Origin: Candidatus Zambryskiibacteriota bacterium
GTDB taxonomy: Bacteria; Patescibacteriota; Minisyncoccia; Phycocordibacterales; WO2-35-19
Direction: 5' to 3'
NCBI GenBank assembly: GCA_003233455.1
Contig: QILQ01000052.1
Location: 1-33,819 of the forward strand
Length of the DNA: 33,819 nucleotides
The position numbers were made by a program, and so were the translations under genes. Below, piece by piece: positions 1,198 through 28,995 of the stretch; within the stretch, counting starts at the first letter, position 1; each line of letters starts with the position of its first letter. Under the pieces are notes generated by a model. That model had not been told where the DNA came from. It did no database searches and saw only the letters and a program-made list of their open reading frames with translations.

Positions 1198-1219
1198 CTG
1201 GGGCGGTCATTTGAGTTAT

Positions 1220-9310: not shown

Positions 9311-9449
9311 GTTCGTCGCGTTTTAAATAATATCTTTGTGTAGATACACAAAGCCCGCCCCTAGGAAGGCACCTTGCGGTAACCTCTACCAAAGTTTCCC
9401 TTGGTAACGCGACGAACGCCCTAAGAACGGGTTCTCTATGTTCGTCGCG
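9311..9449. other. structured intergenic element with alternating decamer GTTCGTCGCG / CGCGACGAAC / GTTCGTCGCG
   Basis: Decamer at 9311-9320, its reverse complement at 9408-9417, direct copy at 9440-9449. Inner hairpins CTTTGTGT-agat-ACACAAAG, TACCAA..TTGGTA, AGAAC-gg-GTTCT. Confidence 0.6.
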
Positions 9450-9527
9450 ATTCTTTGCCATGCCAGCAAAGCTGGTTTAGGCTCACTACTAATATTCAAT
9501 TGTTAATGTTCATAATACAGCGACCAC

Positions 9528-9586
9528 CTGTATTAGTCCACCATCTTAGCTTAGTTATTGGGGTTTGCGAAGCGAGTTACCAACAG
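9528..9586 (-). repeat. 59-bp direct repeat, copy 1 (putative cassette recombination site)
   Basis: ctgtattagtccaccatcttagcttagttattggggtttgcgaagcgagttaccaacag, identical to 19168-19226. Weaker homology extends 5' (9509 onward), including an AATACAG..CTGTATT hairpin. Confidence 0.9.
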
Positions 9587-9610
9587 GTTAGAAAAATCAA
9601 TAAATAGCAA

Positions 9611-10135
9611 CTATTTTGTCAGATAGGTATTTAATTCATTCGTTAATTTAGACACTAATTTTTTAACATCTGATTCCTCGCAACTATCTAAAAATTCACG
9701 AATTGAGGCAACGTATTTATCATTATTTGCAAACTTCGGATAGAAACCTTGCTGACCAACTTTGTATATTTCAATAAAATTTCTAAGATGAGATGTAAAG
9801 TCAGCCATTTTAATCATTTTTGCTCTTGGAGATATTGATTTTAATTTCTCATAAAATTGTATTCTCTGTTCATGATTATAGTTTTTAGGATGGGAGACTT
9901 CTTCTACTAGATCGGCGACATCTTTGGAGAAAGTTTCTTTCAATTCATTATAAGTGGTATCTGTATCTTCAAGGGTATCGTGAAGAATTGCCGCAATAAG
10001 CAAATTTTGGTCATTAATACCAAATTTGTCTTGAAGAATTTGGCAAACTTCCAAAAAGTGATTTCCTGTCCCAGCCGCTTCAAACTTTTTACGCGCAAAT
10101 TCTTTGGCTAATTCAATTTGATCAACAGATTCCAT
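9611..10135 (-). CDS. HD-domain hydrolase, small alarmone hydrolase/RelA-SpoT HD-like
   Basis: LLIAAILHDTLEDTDTTYNELKETFSKDVADLVEEVS, typical of (p)ppGpp-hydrolase HD domains. Confidence 0.75.
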   Translation of the reverse strand: MESVDQIELAKEFARKKFEAAGTGNHFLEVCQILQDKFGINDQNLLIAAILHDTLEDTDTTYNELKETFSKDVADLVEEVSHPKNYNHEQRIQFYEKLKSISPRAKMIKMADFTSHLRNFIEIYKVGQQGFYPKFANNDKYVASIREFLDSCEESDVKKLVSKLTNELNTYLTK

Positions 10136-10137
10136 TT

Positions 10138-10572
10138 TTATTGATTTAATCCCAAACTCGCAATATCACCAACTTCTCCATTTTTTACTAGCTCGCTAAT
10201 ACCATCCTTAAACTTACTGAGATAAAACTGGAGTTTTTTAGTTAAATTTATTTTAAATGCATCTTCTATACTGAAAAATTCTAATTTTTGTCCTTCGTTT
10301 CCTAATTTTATATTTGCAACATCTTCATCAGTTAAAAAAGCAAAAAATACTTTTGTGTTATCTGGAGCAGAACCAAGACATTTTAATTGTTGAGGGATAA
10401 TACTTATTTCTTCTTTCAATTCTCTTTGGATAGCTTGAAAATAATCCTCACCTTCTTCGACTCCACCACCAGGAAGCTGCCAGGTATTGGGTTCTGGAAT
10501 TTCTGGTTTATCGTCTCTTAAGATAAGTAAGATTTTGTTGTTATGGACTAAAATTGAAGTTGAAGATGTCAT
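10138..10572 (-). CDS. NUDIX hydrolase
   Basis: Nudix box GGGVEEGEDYFQAIQRELKEEISI. Confidence 0.88.
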   Translation of the reverse strand: MTSSTSILVHNNKILLILRDDKPEIPEPNTWQLPGGGVEEGEDYFQAIQRELKEEISIIPQQLKCLGSAPDNTKVFFAFLTDEDVANIKLGNEGQKLEFFSIEDAFKINLTKKLQFYLSKFKDGISELVKNGEVGDIASLGLNQ

Positions 10573-10598
10573 GAAATATATTACATTCTACCACTTGT

Positions 10599-12353
10599 TT
10601 AAAGTTTTTTGGAAAGATCTTTCATTAAGTCGTTTGCCATTTTTTGAATAGGCTTTTCAAGTGAGGCAAACTTATCATCTAATCTAGAAATACTCAACAC
10701 TTCTGCTAAAGCAAAAAGTTGGGTAAGATGCCCATCTCGTGTATTTAGTAATTCTTTAAATGTCGCCTTGAGACATCGTACAAGCGTGGGATTATCAGCG
10801 GAGAAAGCCAACAAAAGAGCTGGATCATAATTAGATGGTCCCTTTCCCCACATTTCCCAATCCAAAATATTAAGCTCGGGTTGAGTCAAATTACCCCAGT
10901 GCAAATCTCCATGTATAGTAGTCCAAGAAGAAATAGATGTATCAAATTTATCTGAAAAAACCTTTTTAATTGTTTCTGAAACCTTGTCCTGTGTGATAGC
11001 AACTCGATTTGTTTTATGTTGAGAAAGTATGTCAAGTTGTTTTTTGAGTTTTTTAAACCAAATCGCAGACGGAATATTATTTGAATTTACTAAATGAGGA
11101 TTCGTGCTACAAGGAGGCTCGCTAACATACGACGATAGTAATGCTCGCCATTTTGTACCACCCTTATCCCAATCAACATGATCAAGAAGTTGTGGTTTTG
11201 AAATGGAAGGATCAATAGAATGAGCATCCAGTTCACCATTCCAGGCATTATTGTTGTCTATTTTAGAATTGTTAGCACATTGAACCCGTATCCACACATT
11301 AGTATTGTTGTCAGTTAATGCCTTAGAACTTATGGTGGTGTCATTCCAATTATAAAACAACCCACCTTGAGGTGTAATTCCTAACTGATTCGTAATATGT
11401 ACTAATGAAGCAAGGAGATCCTTTCTGTCCTGTTGAGCCATCGGTAAGATTTTTTGTTCTTGGTATTTCATTATGTTATTAGTAGGTTTAGTTGTCGTTA
11501 TTGTTTCCCAAATATGAGGGTTTTGTGAGTTATGAACTTGATAACTCGCACAAATTCGACAATATAAATCAAGTAGGTAGTAACCCATAAAAAATATCAA
11601 ACATTTTTTTCCAGCAACATATAATGATTTACGCCAATCTTTCTCAACTCGGGAAAAGAACCTGAAATCTGTATATTGTCGTCTTCCCATTCGCGTTCGA
11701 ATTTTTTGCTTTACGAATTCACTAAGTGTCTGCGGAAATAACACTTTCACTATTGCATTTTCAACATATTTAAACCTTATACCTTTTTTGTATAATAATA
11801 AGCCAATACATCCATCTTCATTAATTATATCATCATTTAACTTAATCCTCCCGAGTAGTTCAGATTTGAGAGCATAAAGATATCCTGTTGGGTATAGGAA
11901 TAATTCCTGACCATCTTTTGATTTTCGTAAATGATGCCACGCATCACAGCCAAGTTTTGATAACTTATACATAAAACGTGACTTTTGTTTAAGTGAGACC
12001 ACGCGAGCTGTAGCCGCCAATGTATCAATTTTGTCGAGAGAGTTTATTAGGTGTGACAAGCAATTATCTCCCAAAACAATATCACCATCAGTCATGATAA
12101 CAATATCTCCTTTAGACTCCTTAAATATTATTTTTAGTGCAGACATTTTACCTTTACGCTCATTCTCAATAATTAATTGTGTAGATCTGACAGATCGGAC
12201 AATTTCATTGGTTTTATCTGTAGAACCACTTGAAACGATTATGATTTGGGTATCATATTTATTAGTTTGCGATATCACCTGATCTAAAATTCTACGAATA
12301 TTAGCTTCTTCGTTATAAACAGGGATACCTATTGTAATCTTCTTTTTTGTCAT
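10599..12353 (-). CDS. family 2 glycosyltransferase fused to a C-terminal aminoglycoside/choline kinase-like phosphotransferase
   Basis: N-term ITIGIPVYNEEANIRRILD...TDGDIVLGDN (GT2, GT-A fold); C-term TTIHGDLHWGNLTQPELNILDWEMWGKGPSNYDPALLLAF (APH-type Brenner motif). Confidence 0.8.
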   Translation of the reverse strand: MTKKKITIGIPVYNEEANIRRILDQVISQTNKYDTQIIIVSSGSTDKTNEIVRSVRSTQLIIENERKGKMSALKIIFKESKGDIVIMTDGDIVLGDNCLSHLINSLDKIDTLAATARVVSLKQKSRFMYKLSKLGCDAWHHLRKSKDGQELFLYPTGYLYALKSELLGRIKLNDDIINEDGCIGLLLYKKGIRFKYVENAIVKVLFPQTLSEFVKQKIRTRMGRRQYTDFRFFSRVEKDWRKSLYVAGKKCLIFFMGYYLLDLYCRICASYQVHNSQNPHIWETITTTKPTNNIMKYQEQKILPMAQQDRKDLLASLVHITNQLGITPQGGLFYNWNDTTISSKALTDNNTNVWIRVQCANNSKIDNNNAWNGELDAHSIDPSISKPQLLDHVDWDKGGTKWRALLSSYVSEPPCSTNPHLVNSNNIPSAIWFKKLKKQLDILSQHKTNRVAITQDKVSETIKKVFSDKFDTSISSWTTIHGDLHWGNLTQPELNILDWEMWGKGPSNYDPALLLAFSADNPTLVRCLKATFKELLNTRDGHLTQLFALAEVLSISRLDDKFASLEKPIQKMANDLMKDLSKKL

Positions 12354-12841
12354 AGGGAGATTTTAAATATGTTGTCTATTGCTTGTATAATTAGTTTAAA
12401 ATTATGCTCAACAGCAAGAACATTATTTTTTAAGTTAACTACTTTTATGTCCTCAATTTCATCGAGTGGTTTATTTAAAAAATTTCCTAGTAAATATACC
12501 TTTCCTGAGGCGTCTTCATTTGATTGTAATATTTTTTTTAGATTATACAAATCAACAGCAAATATAACAGATGAAGCACTAATATCCTTATTCTCTATAG
12601 CTCTAGGGACATGATTTGATAAATCAATCCCAAATTGTTTAGCAATGTTAATCACAACCCCATCAGGCTTGTTATAAAATAATTCTGTACCTCTAGAAAA
12701 TGCAAAGCAATTCATCGTTTGATTCTTAGCAATCATATTAAAATAATATTCTGCAAATGGGCTTCTGAAAATATTCCCAGCACAAACAAATAGAACATCG
12801 GAGAGATCAATTTTTTCCTGTTTAATGTTTATAAAATTCAT
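12350..12841 (-). CDS. low-molecular-weight protein-tyrosine phosphatase-like protein
   Basis: DVLFVCAGNIFRSPFAEYYF: C(X)5R P-loop. Confidence 0.8.
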   Translation of the reverse strand: MNFINIKQEKIDLSDVLFVCAGNIFRSPFAEYYFNMIAKNQTMNCFAFSRGTELFYNKPDGVVINIAKQFGIDLSNHVPRAIENKDISASSVIFAVDLYNLKKILQSNEDASGKVYLLGNFLNKPLDEIEDIKVVNLKNNVLAVEHNFKLIIQAIDNIFKISL

Positions 12842-12920
12842 AATAATGAGTCAAAACTATTAAATTTCATTTGGAAAATCTAACCCCTCGTTCCTTTTAC
12901 AAAACAAGGGGTTTATTGTG

Positions 12921-13853
12921 CTAAAACACAAAATTGAATGATTGAACATCCCTTACTGGCTGATTGACCTCCTCAAGCAAATTTCTCACGCTCGAGCAAT
13001 CATTTTTTTTCATCAAGATTCCAACGGAATACAACATGTTTTTCAGTATAGCCAATGGATATCTCAAGGGATAGAACTGCCTATAAAAGGGATATAGTCG
13101 TGCAAACTGGATTGTGTAATTTGTGAGACTTGAAATATATTCCCTTCTGGTTTGATATTTTGTTAAACACCAAAACAGGTTTCGAATAGCCAAATTACAA
13201 GTTAATGGGTTTGAAAATGATTGCTTACTATCATGCCAAACCACAGATTTACCTGAGAACATCAATTTACACTTGAGTCGAGACAGAACTCGTAAGGAAA
13301 ACTCGACATCTTCATGATACATAAAGAAGTCCTCGCGAAAATATGCCTCTGCACCTAGTGTTTCCAGATTTAACAACATTGCGGTTCCTGGAACAAAACT
13401 GACAACCTTGTCCTCATTCGTAGGTGTAGCTACGACGATTAAACCGCTCTCAATGTCGAAGAATAACGGGTAGCCAGAGACTATCTTCGGGTAATCTCCG
13501 TACTCAAGAATGGTAGAAGAGACAGCGCCAACCTGAGGATTGGAGTCAGCGAGTTCAATAAGTTGATGTAGCCACATCTTATCAACTATGGTGTCAATAT
13601 TTAACAAAGCTACATAAGGAGTTTTTGTTTCTCTAAGTGCAATGTTGTTGCCACCAGCCCATCCGTAATTCTTATTCATTTCTAATACTTGCACAGGAAA
13701 TTTTTTAAGAAGTTGTACGCTATGATCTAATGAATTATTATCAATAACCATAACATCAAAATCGTCAAATTCCTGAGCAAATACTGAACTTAGACACTTC
13801 TCAATAAACTGGGTGCTGTTATACGTTGGGATGACAATCGTCGCCTTTTTCAT
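12921..13853 (-). CDS. family 2 glycosyltransferase (rhamnosyltransferase-like)
   Basis: ATIVIPTYNSTQFIEKCLSSV...VMVIDNNSLDHSV...NKNYGWAGGNNIAL. Confidence 0.88.
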   Translation of the reverse strand: MKKATIVIPTYNSTQFIEKCLSSVFAQEFDDFDVMVIDNNSLDHSVQLLKKFPVQVLEMNKNYGWAGGNNIALRETKTPYVALLNIDTIVDKMWLHQLIELADSNPQVGAVSSTILEYGDYPKIVSGYPLFFDIESGLIVVATPTNEDKVVSFVPGTAMLLNLETLGAEAYFREDFFMYHEDVEFSLRVLSRLKCKLMFSGKSVVWHDSKQSFSNPLTCNLAIRNLFWCLTKYQTRREYISSLTNYTIQFARLYPFYRQFYPLRYPLAILKNMLYSVGILMKKNDCSSVRNLLEEVNQPVRDVQSFNFVF

Positions 13854-14526
13854 TTTTAAAGATCCTTTCTGTCATGTTGTTCAACCTCGTTATTTTATCA
13901 ACTTGATTGTGAAATAAGGAGCACATTTGTGATGAGTAGAGATCCATCGCATTATGTTTACTCTTTAAATCATCTGCACACAGCTTTATTGACTTGTATA
14001 ACTCCAAACCCGCGTCACTGCTTATGCGGCTGTATGGTATATCGTCGACATACAAAAGCTCAATATTTGGAATTTTCTGAGCCACCTTAACAATCAAACG
14101 ATGATCAAAATGTCGTTTGTTACCACTAGGATAATGAACAACAACTTGGTTAAGTTTACTTTTTATTATGTATTTTGTCAATCTTCGAACCAAATCATCA
14201 AATAGTTTTTTGTCTATATTTAATTGGGTTTCATTAAAAAAAACTCGCCTGTGTCGTAGGAGGCAATCTGGTATTTTGAAATAATCAAAATTAATTCCCA
14301 CCTCTTTAGCAAACCTTTTGTCTTCTTTTAATCTAGTCATTGTAACATCATCTTTTGTTTTGTATATTTCCCTCTTACTAATATCTACGTACTCCGAAAC
14401 GCCAAATATCGTTAGAAGTGTTTGGTGTTTTGATAAAATTTTCTTTCTGATAATTTGAAAACTCGACATAACTATGTCATCTGAATGAGGTGAAATAAAG
14501 CATGTTCTAATTTCATTATCTTTCAT
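13819..14526 (-). CDS. PIG-L family deacetylase-like protein
   Basis: CFISPHSDDIVMSS (cf. PHPDDE) and VVHYPSGNKRHFDHRLI; N-terminus lies in a glycan operon. Confidence 0.7.
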   Translation of the reverse strand: MKDNEIRTCFISPHSDDIVMSSFQIIRKKILSKHQTLLTIFGVSEYVDISKREIYKTKDDVTMTRLKEDKRFAKEVGINFDYFKIPDCLLRHRRVFFNETQLNIDKKLFDDLVRRLTKYIIKSKLNQVVVHYPSGNKRHFDHRLIVKVAQKIPNIELLYVDDIPYSRISSDAGLELYKSIKLCADDLKSKHNAMDLYSSQMCSLFHNQVDKITRLNNMTERIFKNEKGDDCHPNV

Positions 14527-15467
14527 ATTATAATATTTTGTAAGTAATACTCTTGAGCGCCTAATCGGTATTTATATGGTTCATTTCCTCTTGTAAAATC
14601 CATAATATTATATTTTTCTCTTTCATTTCTTAATCCGCTCCAAAAATCTAAAATTAAACCATATGACACATCGTTAGAACCTTGTTCATGAGCACGTAAA
14701 TAACATATTGAATCATGCTTGTGTGTTAAATTCAATGAACAAGCGACCAGCCTACTAGAGTCAAAACAATAATCAATATATACATGCTCTTTTAGTGTAT
14801 CGGTGAAGCAAAATTGATATATCAGGTTATTAAACTCTTTATGGAAGGAGTCGTTCATCTCTTCCACTTTTCTTGAATTCAATTTGTTATGGCGTTTATC
14901 GAGAAGCCAGGACAATAATCGTTTACCTTGATCTGTTTTAATACCAAGATATTCCCTTCCAAAAGTCAACCCAGACTCTTTACCTTTATAATACATTTTA
15001 CTTATACGCTCAGAAACTAGTGGAACAAACTGATGATTCTTAGGCTCAATGTGCAAACTATTTGTTCTTGATTTCGACGTAGCATGATTTAAAAAATGGC
15101 TACTTACATCTTCTTCAAATAACGAATTAAGCCTAAGTGTTAAATGATTTTTCTTAACATAATCTAAAAGCGGTTTATAATATGCAACTTGGTCATTTTT
15201 TATGTTATAAAAACCGTTGAAATCATTGAAGGGATCCCCAAGAAACATCAAATTACTACCATTACGCACGAAAACAGCATAATTAAGTAATTCACACGCA
15301 CTTGTGATTAAAACAATATTTTTTGGTTTATATATATGACAGTATGATTGGATCCATTCTCTCCCAGAAAAAATATAGCGATAATTAATCAGTTCTTTGG
15401 TTAAGCGTAGTGACTTAACAATCTCACTTGATGCCTCAGTGTTTATTTCTATTATTTTACCCAACAT
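14523..15467 (-). CDS. CelD/BcsL-type GNAT acyltransferase
   Basis: C-terminal YNIMDFTRGNEPYKYRLGAQEYYL is characteristic of CelD/BcsL-like GNAT proteins. Confidence 0.65.
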   Translation of the reverse strand: MLGKIIEINTEASSEIVKSLRLTKELINYRYIFSGREWIQSYCHIYKPKNIVLITSACELLNYAVFVRNGSNLMFLGDPFNDFNGFYNIKNDQVAYYKPLLDYVKKNHLTLRLNSLFEEDVSSHFLNHATSKSRTNSLHIEPKNHQFVPLVSERISKMYYKGKESGLTFGREYLGIKTDQGKRLLSWLLDKRHNKLNSRKVEEMNDSFHKEFNNLIYQFCFTDTLKEHVYIDYCFDSSRLVACSLNLTHKHDSICYLRAHEQGSNDVSYGLILDFWSGLRNEREKYNIMDFTRGNEPYKYRLGAQEYYLQNIII

Positions 15468-16570
15468 AAATTATTAAATACCTTTAAATAAACCTTAATT
15501 GCGTTTTCAATGGTATGTTCACTATTTACATAATTATATGCATCAACAATCATTGATTTTTTTCTTTTGCTATTTAGCACCTTGTCAATTTGTTTTGCAA
15601 CATCGAAACTAGAAGTATTATAAGGAAATAAAATACCTCTATCTGATGCCAACAAGGTGAGCATATGCCCCACCTCTCTTGAAACAACTAATGTTTTACT
15701 ATTCATGGCTTCTACAGCCACACGAGGGCAACCTTCCGTGTCTGAGCAAATCAACAATGCATCAGCACTACGATAATAATCGATGGTATTTTCTATAAAG
15801 CCAATAAATTGGACCCTGCTCTCTATACCAAGACGCTTTGCTTGTAATTTTAGATTATCAAGTTCATTCCCATCTCCGATTATCTTAAAACAATAATTTG
15901 TATTAAAACTATTAAGATAACTAGCGATATCTAAAAACATATCGAATCGTTTTTCTTGTGATAAACGACCAATAGCCATGATGACCCTTTCGGTTTCGCA
16001 TTTCTCAATTTTATGTATTGATTTATTTTCTAAGCGATCAAAATTGATAAATGACGGAGAGTAATATACATTATTTTGCTTGTATTTTAGAACAATTTCT
16101 TTCATACCTGGTTCAACTACAAATACTGCATCAAAACATTTTAATGTAAAATTATCAAAGAATGTTTTAATAATTTCAAACACATTATTTCTGATCCATC
16201 CGTGTTCAGTACAACTAAATGTTAAAGTAATCGACTTCCTTAATTTAGGATAATATAGAAATTTGAAAATAGTTACAATAAAATTTGAGTGGTAACCGTT
16301 TGAATGAATGACTGAAGGGTTATATTCATGAACCAATTTAGCCAACCTAAACGCACACTTCCAAATATTATCTCCTATCCATCTACTAGGTACATTATAA
16401 GAATCCAAAAAAACACCACAGTTTTTATTGTGAGAATATAGAATAGTACATTTTATGTTCGTTTTTGAATTCAGTCCCTGCGTAAGTTCTGTAGCATAAA
16501 ACTCAGCTCCTCCCAAAACAGATCCTGGACTCAATATTACCAACACATTTGTTTGTTTACTTATGTTCAT
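15452..16570 (-). CDS. GT4-type glycosyltransferase
   Basis: VIMAIGRLSQEKRFDMFLDIA...GDGNELDNLKLQAKRLGIESRVQFIGF...LICSDTEGCPRVAVEAM. Confidence 0.9.
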   Translation of the reverse strand: MNISKQTNVLVILSPGSVLGGAEFYATELTQGLNSKTNIKCTILYSHNKNCGVFLDSYNVPSRWIGDNIWKCAFRLAKLVHEYNPSVIHSNGYHSNFIVTIFKFLYYPKLRKSITLTFSCTEHGWIRNNVFEIIKTFFDNFTLKCFDAVFVVEPGMKEIVLKYKQNNVYYSPSFINFDRLENKSIHKIEKCETERVIMAIGRLSQEKRFDMFLDIASYLNSFNTNYCFKIIGDGNELDNLKLQAKRLGIESRVQFIGFIENTIDYYRSADALLICSDTEGCPRVAVEAMNSKTLVVSREVGHMLTLLASDRGILFPYNTSSFDVAKQIDKVLNSKRKKSMIVDAYNYVNSEHTIENAIKVYLKVFNNLCWVK

Positions 16571-17432
16571 TTATATATTTATCCATATTTCGATAACCTC
16601 TTACATATTGTTTGTAATAATCAATAAAAGGCTGTCTAGATTTTTTTAAAAAAAGGCATTTTATTTGTTCAACTACTAACCATTTAACAAATTTAAAAAG
16701 ATGATAGAAATAATCAAGTTTTGATATTTTGTTCATTTTAGAGAAGAATGCTCCTGCTGCATAGCCATATAATTGCATTTGTTGCTGATCTTCTCCTGTC
16801 GATCTCCATGACCGATGAACAACAATAGCTGATGGTTCATAAAGAATTTTATATCCACTTGTCAAAACCCTATACCCCCAATCGTTATCGTCAGAGCTTA
16901 AAAAGAGAGAGCCTGGACCTAAATTTTCATCAAAACCACCAATATTTATTACAACCTCTTTATTAAAAGCCATGTTGCATCCAGATAAGATAAATATTGG
17001 TGTGATTATTCCCTTTTTGTACAATTTACGTCTACTTAAAATATCGTCTAGACGTGACTTGACCGAATTATCCTCAATATCACCAGCAACTACTCGGCCA
17101 GTAATAATATCTGTAGTAGTTTCGTTAAATACTCGGACAAGATTCTCTACCCATCTTTCATCAGCCAAACAATCGTCATCAATAATGGCAATATATTTTG
17201 AGATAGATTTATGAATCCCTTCATTAATCGCTTTTGATTTGTTTTGGTCAAACAACTTAACGTACGTAAATAAATAATCTCGGCATATATTTTCTGTTTT
17301 TTTATCAAAAGATTGATCAAGAATTATAATCTCATCAGGTTTAAGTGATTGTCTCCTTAAACTATCAAATACAGGCCTCAACATATGACTTCTATTAGCA
17401 GTAGCTAATAATATTGTGATATTTGTTCTCAT
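16557..17432 (-). CDS. family 2 glycosyltransferase
   Basis: NITILLATANRSHMLRPVFDSL...IIILDQSFDKKTENI...IAIIDDDCLADERWVENL. Confidence 0.88.
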   Translation of the reverse strand: MRTNITILLATANRSHMLRPVFDSLRRQSLKPDEIIILDQSFDKKTENICRDYLFTYVKLFDQNKSKAINEGIHKSISKYIAIIDDDCLADERWVENLVRVFNETTTDIITGRVVAGDIEDNSVKSRLDDILSRRKLYKKGIITPIFILSGCNMAFNKEVVINIGGFDENLGPGSLFLSSDDNDWGYRVLTSGYKILYEPSAIVVHRSWRSTGEDQQQMQLYGYAAGAFFSKMNKISKLDYFYHLFKFVKWLVVEQIKCLFLKKSRQPFIDYYKQYVRGYRNMDKYINEHK

Positions 17433-17464
17433 TTGTATATTCTATATAATGAGACAATACCATA

Positions 17465-18031
17465 TCAACAATATAATTGCTTAAATTCTTTTTCGACCTC
17501 ACTTGCATCTTCAAATGTTTTGTAACCATATCGCTCTGCCTCTTCTTTGTATTTCTTACCTTCGTAATAATAAAACATTTCAGCTTCTTTTCTTTGTAAT
17601 TCTTCAGTCTTTCCCCAGCGTGGATCTTCCATATTCCGTTTAAGTATTAATTCAAAAGATTCACCTAGTAAATAAATACCTGATATTTCATTGTATTCTT
17701 TCATCAAATGAGGTAGTAGATTTACTCCTTCAAAAATAGCTGGTTTACCATCAGTAATCACTGAATCAATCTTATTTTTAATTGTTGGCCAAAATGCTTC
17801 TGATTGATTTTTTAGATTTTGCCAATCCTGATCACAAGAAGTATTTTCCCAATATTCTGTTTCGTCTTGGTCAAGAAAGAAATTAACCCATTTTTTTAGT
17901 TTTTCATCTTTTGTCATTTCTCCACGTAAATTATCAATATCGACATGAAGCAAATTTAATTCCTTTGCCATCTTACTAGCCAACCAACTTTTTCCCGAAG
18001 CCGGTATTCCACTGATAAAAAAGTATTTCAT
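17465..18031 (-). CDS. P-loop nucleotide/2-phosphoglycerate kinase-like protein
   Basis: FFISGIPASGKSWLASKMAKEL Walker A. Confidence 0.7.
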   Translation of the reverse strand: MKYFFISGIPASGKSWLASKMAKELNLLHVDIDNLRGEMTKDEKLKKWVNFFLDQDETEYWENTSCDQDWQNLKNQSEAFWPTIKNKIDSVITDGKPAIFEGVNLLPHLMKEYNEISGIYLLGESFELILKRNMEDPRWGKTEELQRKEAEMFYYYEGKKYKEEAERYGYKTFEDASEVEKEFKQLYC

Positions 18032-18774
18032 ATTATTAATAAATCTTTTAACAACTTAAATTCTTTTTCTTTTTTAATCACTTCTTCATGATACTTGTTT
18101 GTTTTCCAATAAATCTTGTAAGCATTAGCTGATGATTTAGAGCTGATAATTCTATATTTATCATCAATAATTTCAATGGTACAGCAATTATCTATAGCGA
18201 CAGCAATGCCTGGCGTTTTCCTCATCATTTTTTTAAGGTCTGGTTTTCTATCTTTCTCAAAATCATAGTGTGGACAATACAGAGCATTTATTAAACCAAG
18301 ACCGGAAACTTTTATTAAATCCGCTTTGGAGTTAACAGATTTTCTGGAATCAGAACTTCCATATTTAAACCAACAAATTGAACCAGCACTCAATCCCGAA
18401 AGAACGGTACCTTTCTCATAAGCTCGTTTTAAAATTTTATCAACACCAGTTTTTCTCCAAATATTCATCATTTTCAAAGTATTGCCGCCACCAACATAGA
18501 TTATATCTGAACCAAAAACCTTTTTCTCAATCTCTTTCTTGCTAAGATTTTTGTTTATTAAATACAAAACATCGGTTTTGCATCCAAGTTTGCCAAAATG
18601 TTTTTTTACAGTTTCGTAATACGATTCTGAATCAGCACTGGCAGTTGGAATAAAAAGTAATCTGGGATTTTTCTTTCCCGTTAGTTTTATTATTTCTTTG
18701 TCTATTCGGGTGGTTTCTACAGGAAAACCTGGTCTACCTATTTCACCGCCACCAATGGCCATAATTTTTTTCAT
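18028..18774 (-). CDS. peptidase S51 (dipeptidase E-like)
   Basis: IMAIGGGEIG...DIIYVGGGNTLKMM...LSGLSAGSICWF nucleophile elbow. Confidence 0.85.
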   Translation of the reverse strand: MKKIMAIGGGEIGRPGFPVETTRIDKEIIKLTGKKNPRLLFIPTASADSESYYETVKKHFGKLGCKTDVLYLINKNLSKKEIEKKVFGSDIIYVGGGNTLKMMNIWRKTGVDKILKRAYEKGTVLSGLSAGSICWFKYGSSDSRKSVNSKADLIKVSGLGLINALYCPHYDFEKDRKPDLKKMMRKTPGIAVAIDNCCTIEIIDDKYRIISSKSSANAYKIYWKTNKYHEEVIKKEKEFKLLKDLLII

Positions 18775-18815
18775 AAATTTATAATACTACGATTTTGGAG
18801 CGAAAATAGATGGCC

Positions 18816-19130
18816 TTATAAAAGGCCAAATTCAACGGTAATTTCATTAGGGACTTTTTTATCCAACTCTGTATTTATTATCCCACCAATATTTAAAAAC
18901 ATTTTGAGTGATCGCTTATTGTGCTCCTGAATATGGGCGTATAATTTTTTGACCTTTTTGTTCCGACACATATCTAAAAAATATTTCACAAAATTTGAGC
19001 CGATACCTTTGCCCCTATAATCTTTTTGTATGGTTATTTGTTCTAAATACCAATGTTCAGAATTGTCATGGAATTTTTTATCCCATCCGAGAAACCCAAT
19101 GATTTTGTTTTCATAAACTTTAAAAGTGTA
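18816..19130 (-). pseudogene. GNAT acetyltransferase, 5'-truncated
   Basis: Manual translation: YTFKVYENKIIGFLGWDKKFHDNSEHWYLEQITIQKDYRGKGIGSNFVKYFLDMCRNKKVKKLYAHIQEHNKRSLKMFLNIGGIINTELDKKVPNEITVEFGLL*. GNAT motif A YRGKGIG present, N-terminus missing, in-frame TAG immediately upstream, no usable start. Confidence 0.75.
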
Positions 19131-19167
19131 CTAGTTTGAGTACTATATATTCATAGTACAACGGGTA

Positions 19168-19226
19168 CTGTATTAGTCCACCATCTTAGCTTAGTTATTG
19201 GGGTTTGCGAAGCGAGTTACCAACAG
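19168..19226 (-). repeat. 59-bp direct repeat, copy 2 (putative cassette recombination site)
   Basis: Identical over 59/59 bp to 9528-9586; upstream 19150-19163 also matches 9509-9522 at 12/14. Confidence 0.9.
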
Positions 19227-19229
19227 TCT

Positions 19230-20435
19230 CTATATGTTCCTACTTCCGAATATTTGTATTATCCCAGCACCTTTATAGTCTTCTCGTCTGTAATCTTTTA
19301 CTTTCAACAGTAACTCTGGAAAGTTATTTTGAACCATTTTTATATCTCTGGGAGTTTTACTTAGAGTACTCGCTAATTTCTTTTTTAATGCTATTGTTAG
19401 TTTTATTTTATTTTTCTCATCTGAATTAAAGATAAAAATATCTTGGTTATTAACCCTTACAATATTATTCATCTTTCCAAATTCAGCCTTTCTTCTCACT
19501 TTCACCTGAACAATACCGTGGAAAAATATGAAGAATTTCAAAATCGTCTGCGATACTATATCAAACGCATCTGACTGGAAATTGGTTCTACTAGGTATTG
19601 GAAATTGAGGTGGTAAATATCCTCTCTGATCAAACAAATCAGCATGGGCCACATCTTCTTTATTTCTCTTCTTCCATAGTTTCAAAATATCCTTTTTTAT
19701 TTCATTAGATAAACCAATAGTCTTAGACATAGATTCTAATCTATTGGGAAAATACCTACCAGTAAATATTTTGGTTAGCACTTCTACACTCTTTGCTAAA
19801 TCAAGGATAACTTTGTCTAACAGGAACCCCTGGTGGAATAATCGCCTGGCTTCAAGAAAATACTCGAGTGATTTGCTTACAGTATAAATATCTGTTTTAT
19901 ATATTCTGTTTATCAAATCTTTACCCTCTTCATCAAAATTATTTTCTATGGGAAGGTTTATTTGACTCACTGAACCCCCAAAAAATATTTTATCTTCATC
20001 AACTTCTTTTTCTTTATCATTTACTATCTGATAAATCTTACATATTTGATAATCATACGGTTTAAATAAATATCTGTTGTGCTTCCTTTCAAATAAAGAT
20101 GAAGCAGACAAAGATAATGAAACTACTAGTCTGTCGAATCTGCCTATGGCAACGCCCAATACACCACCGAGATCTGGGTATGAAATGTCTGTGTAAGTTA
20201 CAATCTGGCTTTTTATAATACGACTATCCGAAGTCCTCACTGGTATGAGAAAACTCTTATAATCCGTGGTAACTATCGATTCTGGATTTTTAACAGCCAA
20301 TGGAGAAAAGTGTCTATTTTTCTGTTCTTCCTGTGTCATCGTGACAATAAAGCAGTCTCCAATCTTCAATTTTTCTTTAGGTAAGATATAACCAATTATT
20401 TTTGCATAGATTCTATATTTACTAGTACTTTTCAT
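19230..20435 (-). CDS. hypothetical protein with HEPN-like motif
   Basis: LFHQGFLLDKVILDLAKSVEVLTKIF...LWKKRNKEDVAHADLF: RNx5H resembling HEPN Rx4-6H. Stop codon 3 bp from the 59-bp repeat. Confidence 0.5.
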   Translation of the reverse strand: MKSTSKYRIYAKIIGYILPKEKLKIGDCFIVTMTQEEQKNRHFSPLAVKNPESIVTTDYKSFLIPVRTSDSRIIKSQIVTYTDISYPDLGGVLGVAIGRFDRLVVSLSLSASSLFERKHNRYLFKPYDYQICKIYQIVNDKEKEVDEDKIFFGGSVSQINLPIENNFDEEGKDLINRIYKTDIYTVSKSLEYFLEARRLFHQGFLLDKVILDLAKSVEVLTKIFTGRYFPNRLESMSKTIGLSNEIKKDILKLWKKRNKEDVAHADLFDQRGYLPPQFPIPSRTNFQSDAFDIVSQTILKFFIFFHGIVQVKVRRKAEFGKMNNIVRVNNQDIFIFNSDEKNKIKLTIALKKKLASTLSKTPRDIKMVQNNFPELLLKVKDYRREDYKGAGIIQIFGSRNI

Positions 20436-20534
20436 TATTTTAAAGTTTATTCAAGTTATTCAAATCTTCTTAAGAATTTTTGTTGATCATATAAATTTTT
20501 ACCTAACAGAAATCTATAATATTACAATAGACTT

Positions 20535-21551
20535 TTAACCCTTTATTTTATATTCACCCGATTCTAATTTGGATACAATTTCCTTCGTACCTTCATTAAA
20601 AGTTTTGAATGCATCACCTTTTAGTGGTTCATCTTTTATTTGAAGAAGTTTTTTCTTAATATTTTTATCCACTCCTTCTATATCATCAATAGTCTTTATG
20701 AATACATTTGGTTCATTTCGTAATAAAAACCACTCTTTATCAGTATTTTTATTTTTATCTAATAAGTCTAAATCTTCGTGTGTCATTTTTGGGAATAAAT
20801 AATAGAATTTTTTATTATAAAAATAATATTTAGTGAGAAACATTTCACCTACAGCAATATGACCAGCACGTTGTGATCCGTCAGTAAAATTCCTTCTACT
20901 TCTCCCAGCGTATTTTATAACATAATCATCTTTTATTATTGTTGATCTTTTTTTTGCAAATTCATTCCAATCTCCCTTATAAAATAATTGGAATTTTTCA
21001 TTGAATATTTCATACATCTTTTCCAGATAATCTTTTATAAAAAGATCAAAAGAGTTTTTATCGTTATATCTTTCTAATAATTCTTTTACTACATTAAGAT
21101 CATCCGTTATTAAATAATTACCTTTTTCTACTTGAGAGGCATAGTAAGCCATTCCATATAGATCTGGTTGTATTTTAGTAAGACCTTTTTTAAGATAATA
21201 GACCCCAACCAGGCCATTTTTAACAGCACCTAATGCATGATGAAATCTTTGGTATAGAGCATTTCCGCCAGAATTTCTATTTAGAGCATCAGTCCCTTCA
21301 AGTGCAATCACTGGTTTTTTATCAATTTCTTTCCCATTAAGTCCATCAATCCACTTTTCATCAACATACCACGCCGCATCACACGAACCATAAGAGACCC
21401 CATTAAACCCAAAGGTAAGACCACCTTCTGAGAATAATTTTTGATCATCATTACTACTTTGTGGAAAAATGCGTAGTTTAATATCGTTAATCTCATGACC
21501 AAGATAATCTATAATTTCTCGTTTTATTATTTCATCACTTGAATATGCCAT
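20535..21551 (-). CDS. putative restriction endonuclease subunit
   Basis: SCDAAWYVDEKW...KKPVIALEGTDALNRNSGG: D...ExT nuclease-like core; adjacent to two DNA methyltransferases. Confidence 0.55.
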   Translation of the reverse strand: MAYSSDEIIKREIIDYLGHEINDIKLRIFPQSSNDDQKLFSEGGLTFGFNGVSYGSCDAAWYVDEKWIDGLNGKEIDKKPVIALEGTDALNRNSGGNALYQRFHHALGAVKNGLVGVYYLKKGLTKIQPDLYGMAYYASQVEKGNYLITDDLNVVKELLERYNDKNSFDLFIKDYLEKMYEIFNEKFQLFYKGDWNEFAKKRSTIIKDDYVIKYAGRSRRNFTDGSQRAGHIAVGEMFLTKYYFYNKKFYYLFPKMTHEDLDLLDKNKNTDKEWFLLRNEPNVFIKTIDDIEGVDKNIKKKLLQIKDEPLKGDAFKTFNEGTKEIVSKLESGEYKIKG

Positions 21552-21552
21552 A

Positions 21553-22653
21553 TTATAAAGATTTTATTTTCTCTAAAATTTCTTCTATTTCTAACTCTAA
21601 AACAAAACTGACAAGGTCTGATTCTTTGTTCATTTTTCTATTCTTAACTTCAAAATAAAATTTTTTGAGCTCATCATTGGTAAAATTAGCAATCAGATAA
21701 AATTTTATATAATTTCCAAGCCAATCGATGTACTCTTTTTGTGATAAAGAATCCTCTGCAACATATTTAGTCTCTGGGAGAGTTATTTTGATTTTGTAGT
21801 TAATATCAAGTGTAATTAAGCCGAAATAATCTTTGGATGGTTTTGTTTTAGATGGATGAATTTCAAATCCCTGATCAAACAATCCAGTATTGAGATATTT
21901 CTCTAATTGTTTGGTCATAACTGAATTACCGGTCTTTGCCTCACCCACAATAAAATTATGTGTGACATTGTTATGTTCTGCCCTTGTTCCATGCTTAAAA
22001 TTTCTAATAAGTGCCAACTCAATCATATGGAAGCCCTCGTTAGGTAAATAACCATAACTGCTTATTTTTGTTATTATCTCATTGAGACCATACCCCGCAA
22101 AATCTGGCGATCCAATTGCATGAGCGAGAGGTATTTGACTTTCAACGATAAAACCAAGATGTCTGAAATATTCTCCCGCTAAATATTCCATGAACGGTTC
22201 CATACCATTACCCTGTTTACTTGTCTCGATTCTTTGGATTATATAATTTTCCCTGTCTTTAATGTAGTCAAATTTTTCTCTGAGTATATTATTTAGTTCT
22301 TCCTCTGATTCGAATTCAACTGGTACTACGTATTTATCACTTTCAAACAAATGGTGCTTCGCTTGAGACAGAATATACGGAGTATTTTTCAAAACCCCGT
22401 TGTCAAAAATTCCAGAAACAAATTTGTAGCTGAAAGCGTTATAAAATAACTTCATTAAACCCTTGGGGGTAAACTGATAAGTTGGATTCTCTAAATAACC
22501 AGCACCTGTAACACTGCTATAAATAAAAGCTTCTTTGGGTGGCATCTTGACTGCTGTACCCATTTCAGTCTCAACAATTCCAAAATTGAAATTGTTTTTA
22601 AATATTTTTAAAAAATCTTGTTTGTATATTTCCATATGTTTAAATATGTTCAA
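21553..22653 (-). CDS. putative restriction endonuclease, PD-(D/E)XK
   Basis: AIGSPDFAGYG...HNFIVGEAKTGNS: PD...ExK arrangement; overlaps the methyltransferase gene by 14 bp. Confidence 0.6.
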   Translation of the reverse strand: MNIFKHMEIYKQDFLKIFKNNFNFGIVETEMGTAVKMPPKEAFIYSSVTGAGYLENPTYQFTPKGLMKLFYNAFSYKFVSGIFDNGVLKNTPYILSQAKHHLFESDKYVVPVEFESEEELNNILREKFDYIKDRENYIIQRIETSKQGNGMEPFMEYLAGEYFRHLGFIVESQIPLAHAIGSPDFAGYGLNEIITKISSYGYLPNEGFHMIELALIRNFKHGTRAEHNNVTHNFIVGEAKTGNSVMTKQLEKYLNTGLFDQGFEIHPSKTKPSKDYFGLITLDINYKIKITLPETKYVAEDSLSQKEYIDWLGNYIKFYLIANFTNDELKKFYFEVKNRKMNKESDLVSFVLELEIEEILEKIKSL

Positions 22654-24256
22654 ATTTAAATAACGCCGATTGTGTAACTTCTTTATTTTGATGTTGAGTA
22701 GCTTTCTGAAAAAGATTTGTGATACTTTCGATATTTAATTTTTCATAATCAGCCACCTGTGATCCGTCGAAAATTTTACTAATTACCACACCCACAAATA
22801 AATCATAAGCTTTGTTAAGATTGAATAATTTACCATTATTTTCCCCTAAATACTTTATGATTTCATCAGCAATTTCATTAGGATATGCAACTTTTTTACT
22901 TGAAGTTTTGATCTTATTTCTCCTATTCTTGAATGTAACATAGAAATCCGATTTGGGGGAGAATTTTGCCCAGTTTTTGTTGTATGGACTTCCAAAGGTA
23001 TCGTAAGATGAAATGTCTACCAATTCCATTCCATTATCCCTTATTAATTCCGCCAAATTTATCCAAATCTTCAAATCCTTATTTTGAAAAGCTAAGGTAA
23101 AATAAGCATTCTTTTTTAAAACTCTTCTGACTTCACTAATAAAAGAAACGAGTTGATTATAATATTCGTTTATTCCTTTATTCTGAACAGGATTGATGAT
23201 CACTTCTTTATCTATATTAAATTCTTTATTAAGCCAACAATTCCAAATATATGAAAGTTCTGAATATTGGATAGTATCCCCGTAAGGAGGGTCTGTAATT
23301 AAATAATTTATGCTTGATGGTTTGACCTCAGACATTTTTAAGGATGACTTATTGTAAAGCTTTGATCTAGGTTTAGAAATCTGGTTTTGTGAGGCTTTTT
23401 CTGCAATGACCTCTTTCGCCATTTTGACATTATTAACACGATCAACAAATCTCCACCACACATTTTCTTCGATAAAGTCGTCCGGAATCCAAAAATTATT
23501 TACACTAAGAGGGCGGACATTTTCAGCCTTCAATTTGCTTACGTGCAATAAGGTATTAGTAAAGGCAAGCACAAACAACTTTTTATTTTTTAAGGATAAG
23601 TTGTTGATTGTATTATAAAGCAGGGCTAATGATAATAAATTTCTCTTTGAGAACATATCCGATACACGACGTACGCCTTTATATGAAAATCTGTCTTTAT
23701 AAAATTTACTTGGGAAATCTTTATCTGGGTAATTTAAATTTTCTGGGAATTTTATATTTGGCTTTATCTTATTTTTTGATAAGGTAACCTTTTCTTTATT
23801 TTGGAAATTTTCGTTGGCAATTATAGCGTTATAATCTTTTTCATTTTTTTTACCTAAAATAGTGTAAAGAATATATTTGTCTTTTATTTTGTAAAGAGAC
23901 ATTATTTTTTTTCTCACTGCCTTTTCAATCATTCTGAATTCCTTTTCAAGAAGTGCCTGGTCATAACTAATATTTAGTGAATTCTGTGTAAGAAAAACTG
24001 CAAAAGGATTTAGATCATATCCGATAAAATTTCTACCAGCGAGTATTGACTGTAATCCAATAATTCCACTACCACAAAATGGATCCAAAACTAAATCATT
24101 TTCCTTTGAAAATTTCTGAATATATCGATCAATAACAAACCATGGTTTCCTTGACCAATATTTATGAAGTTTGGCGACACGAGAATACTTCCTGTCATAC
24201 CCAATAGCATTTATATCGATCAGATTATTTACAATTTGTGGGAGAGTTAAAGACAT
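22640..24256 (-). CDS. DNA methyltransferase (DPPY type)
   Basis: LVLDPFCGSGIIGLQSILAGRNFIGYDLNPFA and YLITDPPYGDTIQYSELSYIWNCWL. Confidence 0.88.
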   Translation of the reverse strand: MSLTLPQIVNNLIDINAIGYDRKYSRVAKLHKYWSRKPWFVIDRYIQKFSKENDLVLDPFCGSGIIGLQSILAGRNFIGYDLNPFAVFLTQNSLNISYDQALLEKEFRMIEKAVRKKIMSLYKIKDKYILYTILGKKNEKDYNAIIANENFQNKEKVTLSKNKIKPNIKFPENLNYPDKDFPSKFYKDRFSYKGVRRVSDMFSKRNLLSLALLYNTINNLSLKNKKLFVLAFTNTLLHVSKLKAENVRPLSVNNFWIPDDFIEENVWWRFVDRVNNVKMAKEVIAEKASQNQISKPRSKLYNKSSLKMSEVKPSSINYLITDPPYGDTIQYSELSYIWNCWLNKEFNIDKEVIINPVQNKGINEYYNQLVSFISEVRRVLKKNAYFTLAFQNKDLKIWINLAELIRDNGMELVDISSYDTFGSPYNKNWAKFSPKSDFYVTFKNRRNKIKTSSKKVAYPNEIADEIIKYLGENNGKLFNLNKAYDLFVGVVISKIFDGSQVADYEKLNIESITNLFQKATQHQNKEVTQSALFKFEHI

Positions 24257-24257
24257 A

Positions 24258-25280
24258 TTATTTCTTTTTAAAAATTAGGCAGTAGTGATGAAGGATATTA
24301 CTAGCCCATGCCGAAGGATAACCATAAGGGGCAAGTCCTACCTTATCTTGTATCCAAAGTTTTTCATCTTTAAGCTGATATTTTTTGGAAAGAATCCGCG
24401 CTAAATCCCATGCTAAAGGGTACATTTTGCCTTCTTTTTTAATATTTTTAACAATAACAGTCAGATACCCACCATCTTTGAGTAAATCAAAAATATCAAA
24501 ATAGATTTTAGCCAATCTTTCTAGAAATAATTCATAATCTTCAACATTGCCTAAATCATCTTGGTGCTCTGAATAATTCACATCAAAACCATTCTTAGTT
24601 CTATCAGTCTTAAAATTTTTTGTGCTTCGATTTAAAACATTCCAGTATGGTGGTGATGATATTGAGTAATCAATTTTTGGTAGATTAAGTTTCTTGATAT
24701 CTTCAGCATTTTTATTGAAAATATTTTTTTTAAATTCGGGCGTTCTTTTTATAGATAGTTTGTAATATTTCTTGTTCAATTCAATTCCGTAGCCAACTCT
24801 ACCAGTACGTTTACAAGCAACAAGAGTGCTTCCAATCCCACAAAAAGGGTCTAGAACATTTTCGCCTTTTTTAGTGAAAAATTTTACAAAATCCTCAATC
24901 ATTGTTGGTGAAAATGTAGCTGGGTGATCTTGGGTGTTGGGGGATATTTCTCGTTCTTCTTTTAAATCTTTTTGTAAAGCATTAAAAATAAACCAGCTAC
25001 AGCTAAATTTTACCCACTCCTTGCCAGTCATGTTATTTAAATGATTAGACAGATCATAAGCACCGTTTTCGGGATCAATTAAAATAGCATTAGCTTTTTC
25101 AATATCACCACTAGGATTGTATAGAGCAACGTCTTGCCATTTCTCCAAAAAATATTCTGGTATCAATTTTTTTCTTGTTTTGTAAATTTCAGCAAGTTTC
25201 TTCTTCGCTAGTTTATTTTTCTCTTTATCCAAAACAGGTACAACCTGTTTTTTATCTTTGTAATAAAAATAATTCTTCAT
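24258..25280 (-). CDS. DNA methyltransferase (SPPY type, likely N4-cytosine)
   Basis: VLDPFCGIGSTLVACKRTGRVGYGIELN and YSISSPPYWNVLNRS. Confidence 0.88.
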   Translation of the reverse strand: MKNYFYYKDKKQVVPVLDKEKNKLAKKKLAEIYKTRKKLIPEYFLEKWQDVALYNPSGDIEKANAILIDPENGAYDLSNHLNNMTGKEWVKFSCSWFIFNALQKDLKEEREISPNTQDHPATFSPTMIEDFVKFFTKKGENVLDPFCGIGSTLVACKRTGRVGYGIELNKKYYKLSIKRTPEFKKNIFNKNAEDIKKLNLPKIDYSISSPPYWNVLNRSTKNFKTDRTKNGFDVNYSEHQDDLGNVEDYELFLERLAKIYFDIFDLLKDGGYLTVIVKNIKKEGKMYPLAWDLARILSKKYQLKDEKLWIQDKVGLAPYGYPSAWASNILHHYCLIFKKK

Positions 25281-25939
25281 ATTAATTTCTCATTCTTAAA
25301 ACTAAAATAATTGCTTTTTGTGACAATAATATGATCTATTATTTCAATACCTAAAATCTTACCCGCTTCTGTTAACTGTCTAGTGGTTTCTAAATCATCT
25401 TCTGATGCTTCTGAATCTCCAGATGGATGATTATGGGCAATTATTATCTGTGCGGCTAGATAACGTACTGCTGGCTCAAATACTTCTCTAGGATGGACAA
25501 GATTACCGTTTAGGGAACCAATGGAAATAATTTCGCGTTTGATTTCTTGATTTCTGGAGTCAAGGAAGAAAATAACAAAATGCTCCTTTTTGTGGTCACG
25601 TAAATCTTTGAGTTCGTCCCAAACATCTTTTGGGGATAGAAGCAAGGATGATTGTTTGTTTTGCAAAAGTCGTCGACCTAGTTCGAAACAAGCGACAATC
25701 TCACATGCTTTTGCACTACCCAAACCAAAAGTATCTTTTAACTCCTTAACATTTGCCTTACTTAATCCATCGCCACTAAACTTTTTGAGTATTTTATTTG
25801 AAAGTTCTACAACATTCACTCCTTTCGTACCAGTTCCCAAAAGAATTGCCAAAAGTTCTGAATTTGAAAGTCGTTCAGGTCCATATTTTCCAAGCTTTTC
25901 TCGTGGTCTATCAATTTTTGGTAAGTCTTTTATTTTCAT
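25277..25939 (-). CDS. radC: RadC/JAB-domain DNA repair-like protein
   Basis: IKDLPKIDRPREKLGKYGPERLSNSELLAILLGTG...IIIAHNHPSGDSEASEDDLETTRQL. MKIKDLP start preferred; the ORF-track start at 26005 adds a non-homologous extension. Confidence 0.9.
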   Translation of the reverse strand: MKIKDLPKIDRPREKLGKYGPERLSNSELLAILLGTGTKGVNVVELSNKILKKFSGDGLSKANVKELKDTFGLGSAKACEIVACFELGRRLLQNKQSSLLLSPKDVWDELKDLRDHKKEHFVIFFLDSRNQEIKREIISIGSLNGNLVHPREVFEPAVRYLAAQIIIAHNHPSGDSEASEDDLETTRQLTEAGKILGIEIIDHIIVTKSNYFSFKNEKLI

Positions 25940-25990
25940 AATTAGCTTTATTTTAGCAGTTTTTACACATTTTGGTAGGCTGTTTGATAG

Positions 25991-26030
25991 TAGCTTAAAA
26001 CACATTTTTAAAGAAATAAGTTGCCAACAG
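25991..26030 (-). repeat. degenerate third copy of the repeat core (tagctta-N22-gttgccaacag)
   Basis: Shares tagctta and gtt(a/g)ccaacag with the 59-bp repeats at exactly the same 22-nt spacing; located between radC and the divergent recombinase. Confidence 0.4.
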
Positions 26031-26085
26031 TTTGTCTACTACGGGTCTTGGACTAAGTTCGAGTCCAGCGTCATTCATTAAGTAT

Positions 26086-27417
26086 ATGGAAAATACAATG
26101 ATACAAGTGCCAAATGGGACCGTGGCACCCGAAATACAAGGCCCCGTAAAGTATGTACTATATGCCAGAAAAAGTTCGGAGGCTGACGAAAAGCAAGCCC
26201 TTTCGATAGATAGTCAAGTAAAAGAAATGTTGGCTATATCAGAAAGAGAAAAATTAGATATAGTCGACATACGAAGAGAGGCACATTCGGCAAAAGATTC
26301 TGGACAAAGACCAGTGTTCCAGGAAATCCTCAAAGACTTAAGAACTGGTAGATACACCGGAATCCTAACTTGGGCACCAGATAGATTAAGCCGTAATGCC
26401 GGCGATTTAGGAAGTTTGGTAGACCTTATGGATCAAAAACTTCTACGGAAAATTAGAACTTATGGGCAGAAATTTACTAATAATCCAAATGAGAAATTTC
26501 TACTAATGATTCTCTGTAGCCAAGCAAAATTAGAGAATGATAATAAAAGTGTAAATGTAAAAAGAGGTTTAAGAATGAGATGTGAAATGGGACTCTGGCC
26601 GGCACCTGCACCGACTGGGTATTTAAACGAAAAGAAAATTGATAGGAAAGGATATGTAATGGTAGATCCAGAAAGAGGCCCTGTTATGAGACAAATGTTT
26701 GAAAAAGTAGCTTATGAGGGATGGAGTGGAAGAAAGATTTATAACTGGCTTAAGTTTGATATGAATTTTAGAAGTGCGACGAGTAATAAACCTTTAACCT
26801 TAAGCAATATATACAGGTTATTACAGACTCCTTTCTACTATGGAGTCTTTGAATATCCAACTAAAAGTGGTAATTGGTATACAGGCAAGCATACACCTCT
26901 TATAACCAAAAAATTGTTCGAGAAAACCAGAGAAAAGCTGTTAAGATCGGAGATTAAAAATATAGACAAACAATTTGCTTTCTCAAGAATGATAATTTGT
27001 GGTATGTGCGGATCTGGGGTAACAGCAGATGAAAAATGGAAACCGCTTAAAAACGGAGGCCGAGCCCACTACATCTATTATGGATGTAATAGATCACGAG
27101 ATATTACTTGTAAATGTGGATATATACGGGAAGAGGAGATAATAAAACAACTTGTAGACCTCATAGGAGAGCTTGATATGGACCAAAATTTTATAAAGAG
27201 AAAATTTGAGGAAGAACGCGAGCGAGCCATAAAATTCCAAAGGAAATTCTATGGATCCGAAACTCCTAATCTATCCAAAACAGAGTTTGATCCCAAACAA
27301 TATTCTAAACATGTCCTAACTCAAGGTACGATTGAAGAGAAAAGAGAATTAATAAGTGGAGTGAGAAATAAAATTGTGTTGAGAAATAAGGTTATCACTT
27401 TATCCAATCAGATTTAA
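26086..27417 (+). CDS. large serine recombinase
   Basis: KYVLYARKSSEADEKQALSIDSQVKEM...TWAPDRLSRNAGDLG...SVNVKRGLRMRCEMGLWPAPAPTGYLN...MIICGMCGSGVTADEK. ATG at 26086 preferred over upstream TTG. Confidence 0.92.
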   Translation: MENTMIQVPNGTVAPEIQGPVKYVLYARKSSEADEKQALSIDSQVKEMLAISEREKLDIVDIRREAHSAKDSGQRPVFQEILKDLRTGRYTGILTWAPDRLSRNAGDLGSLVDLMDQKLLRKIRTYGQKFTNNPNEKFLLMILCSQAKLENDNKSVNVKRGLRMRCEMGLWPAPAPTGYLNEKKIDRKGYVMVDPERGPVMRQMFEKVAYEGWSGRKIYNWLKFDMNFRSATSNKPLTLSNIYRLLQTPFYYGVFEYPTKSGNWYTGKHTPLITKKLFEKTREKLLRSEIKNIDKQFAFSRMIICGMCGSGVTADEKWKPLKNGGRAHYIYYGCNRSRDITCKCGYIREEEIIKQLVDLIGELDMDQNFIKRKFEEERERAIKFQRKFYGSETPNLSKTEFDPKQYSKHVLTQGTIEEKRELISGVRNKIVLRNKVITLSNQI

Positions 27418-28945: not shown

Positions 28946-28995
28946 AAATTAAAAAACAACGCTCTCCGGTCGCCTCGATAACGCGCTGACTCGTG

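Follow-up and report, generated by a model that had tools for sequence, protein, structure and literature searches.

The stretch of DNA analysed here, a contig of 33,819 nucleotides that we refer to as the window, carries two identical 59-bp repeats (9528-9586 and 19168-19226), with gene blocks beside them and a large serine recombinase gene farther on. The two copies are 100% identical and in direct orientation, and their similarity extends to 81 bp at 91% (9506-9586 versus 19147-19226). An exact 59-mer repeat has a chance probability of ~1e-24, and none was matched in 100 shuffles. A search of the 736-kb assembly found only the two copies, both on the window contig, and a DNA-level search of plasmids and viral contigs found none. 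An earlier reading of the window, made from the sequence alone, had described two identical repeats, each beside a co-oriented gene block and lying 24 bp and 3 bp from the first stop codon, and these descriptions and distances are correct; both gene blocks do lie wholly on the minus strand, with the recombinase gene divergent on the plus strand. Its view of block A as glycan and stress genes and of block B as restriction-modification genes with radC agrees with the family matches listed in Table 1. The degenerate third copy that it placed before the recombinase is real, consisting of GTTGCCAACAG at 26020-26030 and TAGCTTA at the same spacing, although it is small and weak.

Table 1. Predicted features of the window and their positions.
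Feature	Position	Strand	Basis and remarks
Second large serine recombinase, 530 aa, more distant type	1193..2785	+	Pfam Resolvase, Recombinase and Zn ribbon; PHROG 95 integrase
ParB-N / N6-N4 DNA methyltransferase, first of the genes in the conserved flanking module	3910..5238	+	PF01555 and PF02195; phrog_498
Terminase small subunit-like gene	5225..5656	+	phrog_1482, E 2.7e-10
Terminase large subunit-like gene	5640..6656	+	phrog_38, E 3.3e-31
LOOT RNA (RF03000)	9366..9483	-	Adjoins P1; 67.6 bits versus gathering score of 46.4
P1, left arm and core	9489..9586	+	Model R1, E 5.4e-19; holds the first 59-bp copy
P1 core, GTTACCAAC	9576-9584	+	
Insert A	9587..19133	-	HD, NUDIX, glycosyltransferase, PIG-L, LMW phosphatase and peptidase S51 genes
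P2, second left arm and core	19134..19226	+	Model R1, E 8.2e-15; holds the second 59-bp copy
P2 core	19216-19224	+	
Insert B	19227..26019	-	Two N6/N4 methyltransferases, RadC-like protein, and 401-, 338- and 366-aa proteins without assigned function
Core GTTGCCAAC (26020-26028) and right arm P'	26020..26085	+	Conserved ahead of most closely related recombinase genes
Resident large serine recombinase, 443 aa	26086..27417	+	Pfam; PDB relatives; invariant catalytic motifs
tRNA-Gln, 3' end toward the island	28995..29066	-	

Most genes for close relatives of the recombinase (53 to 76% identical) are preceded by a 9-bp core, GTTACCAAC, and then a conserved right arm, P' (GGGACGCTCTGGACTCC...GCGTCATT). 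This core-P' block sits ~70 bp before the recombinase start codon, and the DNA to the left of the core is variable. The window repeat presents the mirror case, in which a conserved left arm, P (TTAGCTTAG...TTTGCGAAGCGA), leads into the same core and the variable DNA is on the right. Set beside these upstream regions, the 59-bp repeat is one half of a putative docking site, made up of the left arm and the 9-bp core, and the core with P' is the other half. The repeat had been taken for a complete attC-like site; it is instead one arm plus the core, and the other arm stays beside the recombinase. Folded as single-stranded DNA, the repeat gives a z value of 0.34 with no long hairpin over the core, and inspection of the DNA around the core revealed no RYYYAAC/GTTRRRY boxes.

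The distribution of the site was followed through 397 genomes of the order, one genome per species and mostly MAGs. A seed search with one strict DNA pattern, ignorant of the position of the recombinase, matched 21 places in 20 of these genomes, compared with 6 for the reversed control, and 2 of the 21 fell inside apparent coding sequence. The sequence model built from the strict-pattern sites, R1, with sites accepted at E up to 1e-4, found 85 sites in the same genomes. Altogether the site family is present in 90 of the 397 genomes, in a fixed relation to the recombinase, and this refutes the reading of the repeat as a simple recent tandem duplication or an assembly error. Such an origin might be suggested by the finding of two identical copies in one MAG contig and by a truncated GNAT gene that ends beside P2, but we regard its probability as negligible. 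The truncated gene is a GNAT acetyltransferase-like frame (18816-19127, minus strand) without its 5' part, and because it ends just left of P2 we place a break point at about 19127-19146.

In all 68 cases where a P site and a close recombinase relative occur on one contig, the site is upstream of such a relative and on its strand. The 68 sites fall into two distance classes: 18 of them are 62-137 bp from the recombinase, with P, core, and P' joined in what we call the closed state, and the other 50 are 1.3-22.4 kb away, split by an insert; one genome (G224) has one closed and two split sites. Ten further R1 sites are on other contigs, several of them near contig ends (e.g., in G003), and seven R1 sites are in genomes without a close recombinase relative. 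The same two distance classes were seen among 116 loci from other collections, outside the training set, where 22 P matches were upstream on the same strand and 2 were placed otherwise. In several closed sites the arms are inverted around cores in tandem, and the arms of the G251 closed site are 16-bp perfect inverted repeats with a sequence unlike that of the other sites. A second full copy of P is found only in the window and in G076, with partial copies in G015, G017, G215, G275, and G295. In the window, where the P arm is present twice, the second copy divides the DNA before the recombinase into two blocks; most platforms hold one large insert in place of the cassette array proposed earlier. 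Both suppositions on which the sequence-only reading depended agree with these data: the repeat is tied to the recombinase family rather than scattered genome-wide away from it, and the gene content between repeat and recombinase varies among relatives while both ends stay constant.

Across the split loci the information content is 14.6 bits in P and 14.6 bits in P', compared to 4.1 and 4.3 bits at the insert ends, and the donor site is nearly undefined (~4 bits). Of 48 split loci, 28 have a core in front of the recombinase, against an expectation of ~0.3; in the other 20 the standard core was not found at this position, and therefore sites decay or other core types exist. When cores were compared, those at the two ends of one locus resembled each other only a little more than cores from separate loci did. 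Genomes G015 and G017 belong to different families and have flanks that are 91-94% identical, and G017 has a further 7.2 kb inserted at the core. In genomes G197 and G337 the homology reaches the core from either side, and the inserts between are unrelated. In G015, G017, and G215 the same 303-aa gene comes right after an outer P core, and beyond it are a second P arm and then differing DNA.

These break points bear on the possibility that cargo is swapped by homologous recombination in conserved flanks, with LOOT-P at one end and the recombinase gene at the other, the recombinase being a bystander. Although the flanks are conserved enough between close relatives for such an exchange, and the cores at the two ends often differ, two independent pairs of genomes lose their homology at the core on either side, and arms conserved right up to the core beside unconserved insert ends are not what exchange of this kind would be expected to leave. 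We consider it improbable. What comparison between genomes shows is a two-part site with closed and split states, strict in position and orientation, with variable inserts and with break points at the core, and the pattern supports a resident docking site at which insertion would be site specific.

The gene at 26086 had been read as a serine recombinase, and its product is a large serine recombinase by its Pfam matches and its structural relatives. It has Resolvase N-terminal, Recombinase, and zinc-ribbon domains, together with the conserved active-site residues of the large serine recombinase family, and it does not have the features of an IntI-type tyrosine recombinase. The catalytic motifs Y-x-R-K-S and D-R-[LI]-S-R are invariant in 18 relatives. 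Close relatives are present in 109 of the 397 genomes of the order, and, judging by the names of related records, the family belongs mainly to Paceibacteria/Parcubacteria. The best solved relatives in the PDB by sequence or fold are the SPbeta, Bxb1, phiC31, and A118 integrases, with SPbeta integrase complexes the closest; the fold matches rest on a predicted structure of moderate confidence. Integrases of the SPbeta type serve as an excision switch for spore genes, and a likeness to them could point to a programmed switch in which excision of a single resident element by the recombinase would activate some function. However, closing P-core-P' rebuilds no interrupted gene, and insert content differs in nearly every genome and is unrelated between species, which makes a switch very improbable.

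Of the coding DNA in the inserts, 78% reads away from the recombinase, and 37 of 51 inserts are oriented predominantly this way; the co-oriented cargo and divergent recombinase noted in the window recur as a tendency of the family. Family matches for 256 insert proteins included N6/N4 methylases (27), ResIII (13), N6 methylase (11), type I specificity (8), HsdM_N (8), and HSDR_N (7) proteins, and a first set of 133 insert proteins included five reverse transcriptases and three bAvd proteins; the cargo was also screened with PADLOC. Type I/III restriction-modification families are far commoner in the inserts and nearly absent among 138 flank proteins, which have nine N6/N4 methylases, including the conserved ParB-methyltransferase. 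Reverse transcriptase and bAvd genes, as in diversity-generating retroelements, occur together in several inserts (e.g., L041 and L066).

Both of the block genes that were tested, among them the gene at 14523-15467 in insert A, are absent from all seven other genomes of the genus. Four genes of insert B are 75-85% identical to genes of G034, a genome from another family of the order, where the counterparts sit on the other side of the recombinase. A four-gene CBASS-like block, with a CD-NTase-like protein, is 90-96% identical between L082 (8045-10718, in G113) and L025 (2665-5314 in turned coordinates, in G034), and this identity between two families is a sign of recent island transfer.

The LOOT RNA next to P1 covers positions 1-121 of the 121 of the RF03000 model, above the curated cut-off, and reads away from the recombinase on the strand opposite P; no LOOT RNA was found beside P2. 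LOOT RNA is present in 100 of 247 genomes of the order and in 0 of 14 control genomes. In the first 98 genomes, 31 of the 38 copies that share a contig with a serine recombinase are upstream of it on the opposite strand. LOOT RNAs also precede 530-aa serine recombinases from another branch (in G004, G018, G064, G072, G079, and others), and the link between LOOT and recombinases may therefore be wider than the resident recombinase family. Rfam lists LOOT RNA as an sRNA (RF03000); neither its function nor a link to serine recombinase docking sites was found in the open-access papers searched.

The DNA to the left of P usually contains a module of ParB-methyltransferase, TerS-like, and TerL-like genes. 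Homologues of the ParB-N / N6-N4 methyltransferase are found in 47 platform genomes and the TerS-like gene in 40; the TerL-like protein of the window has 338 aa, compared to a family median of 493 aa. A minus-strand tRNA is located right of the recombinase in ~30 platforms, with differing specificities; in the stretches examined, neither the inserts nor the DNA left of P had a tRNA. In G113 a 17.6-kb island is framed by 40-bp direct repeats of the tRNA-Gln 3' end that are 100% identical, and in G215 a 24.5-kb island is framed by 43-bp direct repeats of the tRNA-Gln 3' end at 93% identity. Because such repeats frame the islands, we place the platform inside tRNA-integrated, phage-satellite-like islands. 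The tRNA-Gln of the window is the probable right border of its island; no left tRNA repeat was found in the assembly to which the window belongs, and the contig probably ends inside the island. A 516-aa protein encoded between the recombinase and this tRNA (27395-28945, minus strand) matches no Pfam family. Various tRNAs to the right of the recombinase have a shared motif (CTCTCCGGTC or similar) beside their 3' ends. This motif is probably the attachment arm of whole islands; the comparison was not convincing when it was considered as a second site of the same recombinase. The IMG/VR viral collection contains 53 loci of the recombinase family (L271-L323), and the islands are therefore partly catalogued as viruses.

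Tandem integrative elements could also produce platforms of this appearance. The recombinase would then be a satellite-like integrase; one element would end on its right in P-core, its neighbour would begin on the left with core-P'-recombinase, and host or accreted sequence would lie between the two. The terminase genes beside P are in keeping with this, as are the order recombinase-P-recombinase, in one orientation, in G337, G197, G138, and G224 and the exact repeats of the G113 island, in which no other recognisable integrase was found. Yet most genomes have a single close family member with P upstream of it, never only downstream, the joined P-core-P' is intact inside islands whose tRNA-repeat ends lack the core, and the P-to-P' inserts carry cargo genes with variable ends. 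A closed site in a single-element chromosome with defined outer ends would also tell against tandem elements, and G113 partly provides this case. We judge tandem elements to be unlikely, though less so than the exchange or the switch considered above.

The explanation that we favor, and consider likely, is a resident recombinase with a docking site that captures core-bearing insert blocks. The resident large serine recombinase (26086) would keep the docking site P-core-P' beside its own gene, circular DNA carrying only the short core would recombine with that site, and the product of capture would be P-core-(insert)-core-P'-recombinase; run in reverse, the reaction would free the insert and leave the site closed again. 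The inserts would be multi-gene blocks of mostly restriction-modification and other defence genes, and the platform would form part of a terminase-bearing island integrated at a tRNA 3' end, with LOOT RNA encoded beside the P arm. We infer the resident recombinase as the agent, the circular donor, the direction and regulation of the reaction, and the role of LOOT RNA. One point against the model is that some inserts of 2-4 kb contain the methyltransferase-terminase module itself and fit poorly with simple cargo.

On this comparative evidence the sequence-only reading is partly supported: its integron-like capture platform run by a serine recombinase is largely right, except that the platform is unrelated to integrons by descent. 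More tentatively, and as a proposal that may well prove too broad, the platform could be an independently evolved serine-recombinase counterpart of the integron, widespread in Patescibacteria and carried on a satellite-like island, with LOOT acting in or regulating the capture and expression of defence blocks. A search of open-access papers for serine integrons, LSR platforms, and satellites in Patescibacteria/CPR gave nothing relevant, and a serine-recombinase docking platform as an integron counterpart appears to be undescribed so far. Such a platform would explain the swapping of defence genes in genome-reduced Patescibacteria and place the orphan LOOT RNA in a definite genomic context. Its family of >100 recombinases, with natural docking sites, would be a resource for DNA engineering.

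Several known systems share features with the platform. PICI-like phage satellites are also compact tRNA-integrated islands with TerS/TerL-like genes and defence cargo, and one island here has a LexA-like repressor; the additional internal docking site sets the present islands apart. The large serine integrases of phages and IMEs (SPbeta, Bxb1, phiC31, and A118) are alike in protein architecture and fold matches, in having an attP-like site next to the gene, and in the inverted arms of several closed sites. There the integrated DNA includes the integrase gene and attP is divided between the two ends of the element, whereas here the attP-like site would be resident, with foreign DNA in its middle. 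Because the recombinase lies outside the inserted DNA, we set the platform apart from ordinary serine-integrase elements. SCC and SCCmec elements use Ccr large serine recombinases, form tandem islands, and carry defence cargo, and the present islands likewise combine a large serine recombinase and defence cargo with an ability to lie in tandem. The ccr genes travel inside the SCC element, which targets a conserved host gene; in the linked loci described here, the recombinase is outside the inserted DNA, beside the docking site.

Integrons combine the tyrosine integrase IntI, an attI site, and arrays of attC cassettes. The platform resembles them in having a recombinase gene beside its own site, which would receive foreign genes, in its conserved frame with variable content, and in cargo mostly oriented away from a divergent recombinase. 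It differs in that the large serine recombinase is unrelated to IntI, in having two arms around a 9-bp core with no attC hairpin found, and in inserts of 1-22 kb, mostly multi-gene, that are usually single and rarely two; LOOT RNA and a tRNA island with terminase genes are present here and in integrons neither is. We do not class the platform as an integron because it is without the tyrosine integrase and the attC hairpin, though it would work alike. To our knowledge, no bacterial system other than the integron, with its tyrosine enzyme, is well known for acquiring genes at a fixed site next to its recombinase gene, and another such system that uses a large serine recombinase would show that capture platforms arose more than once.
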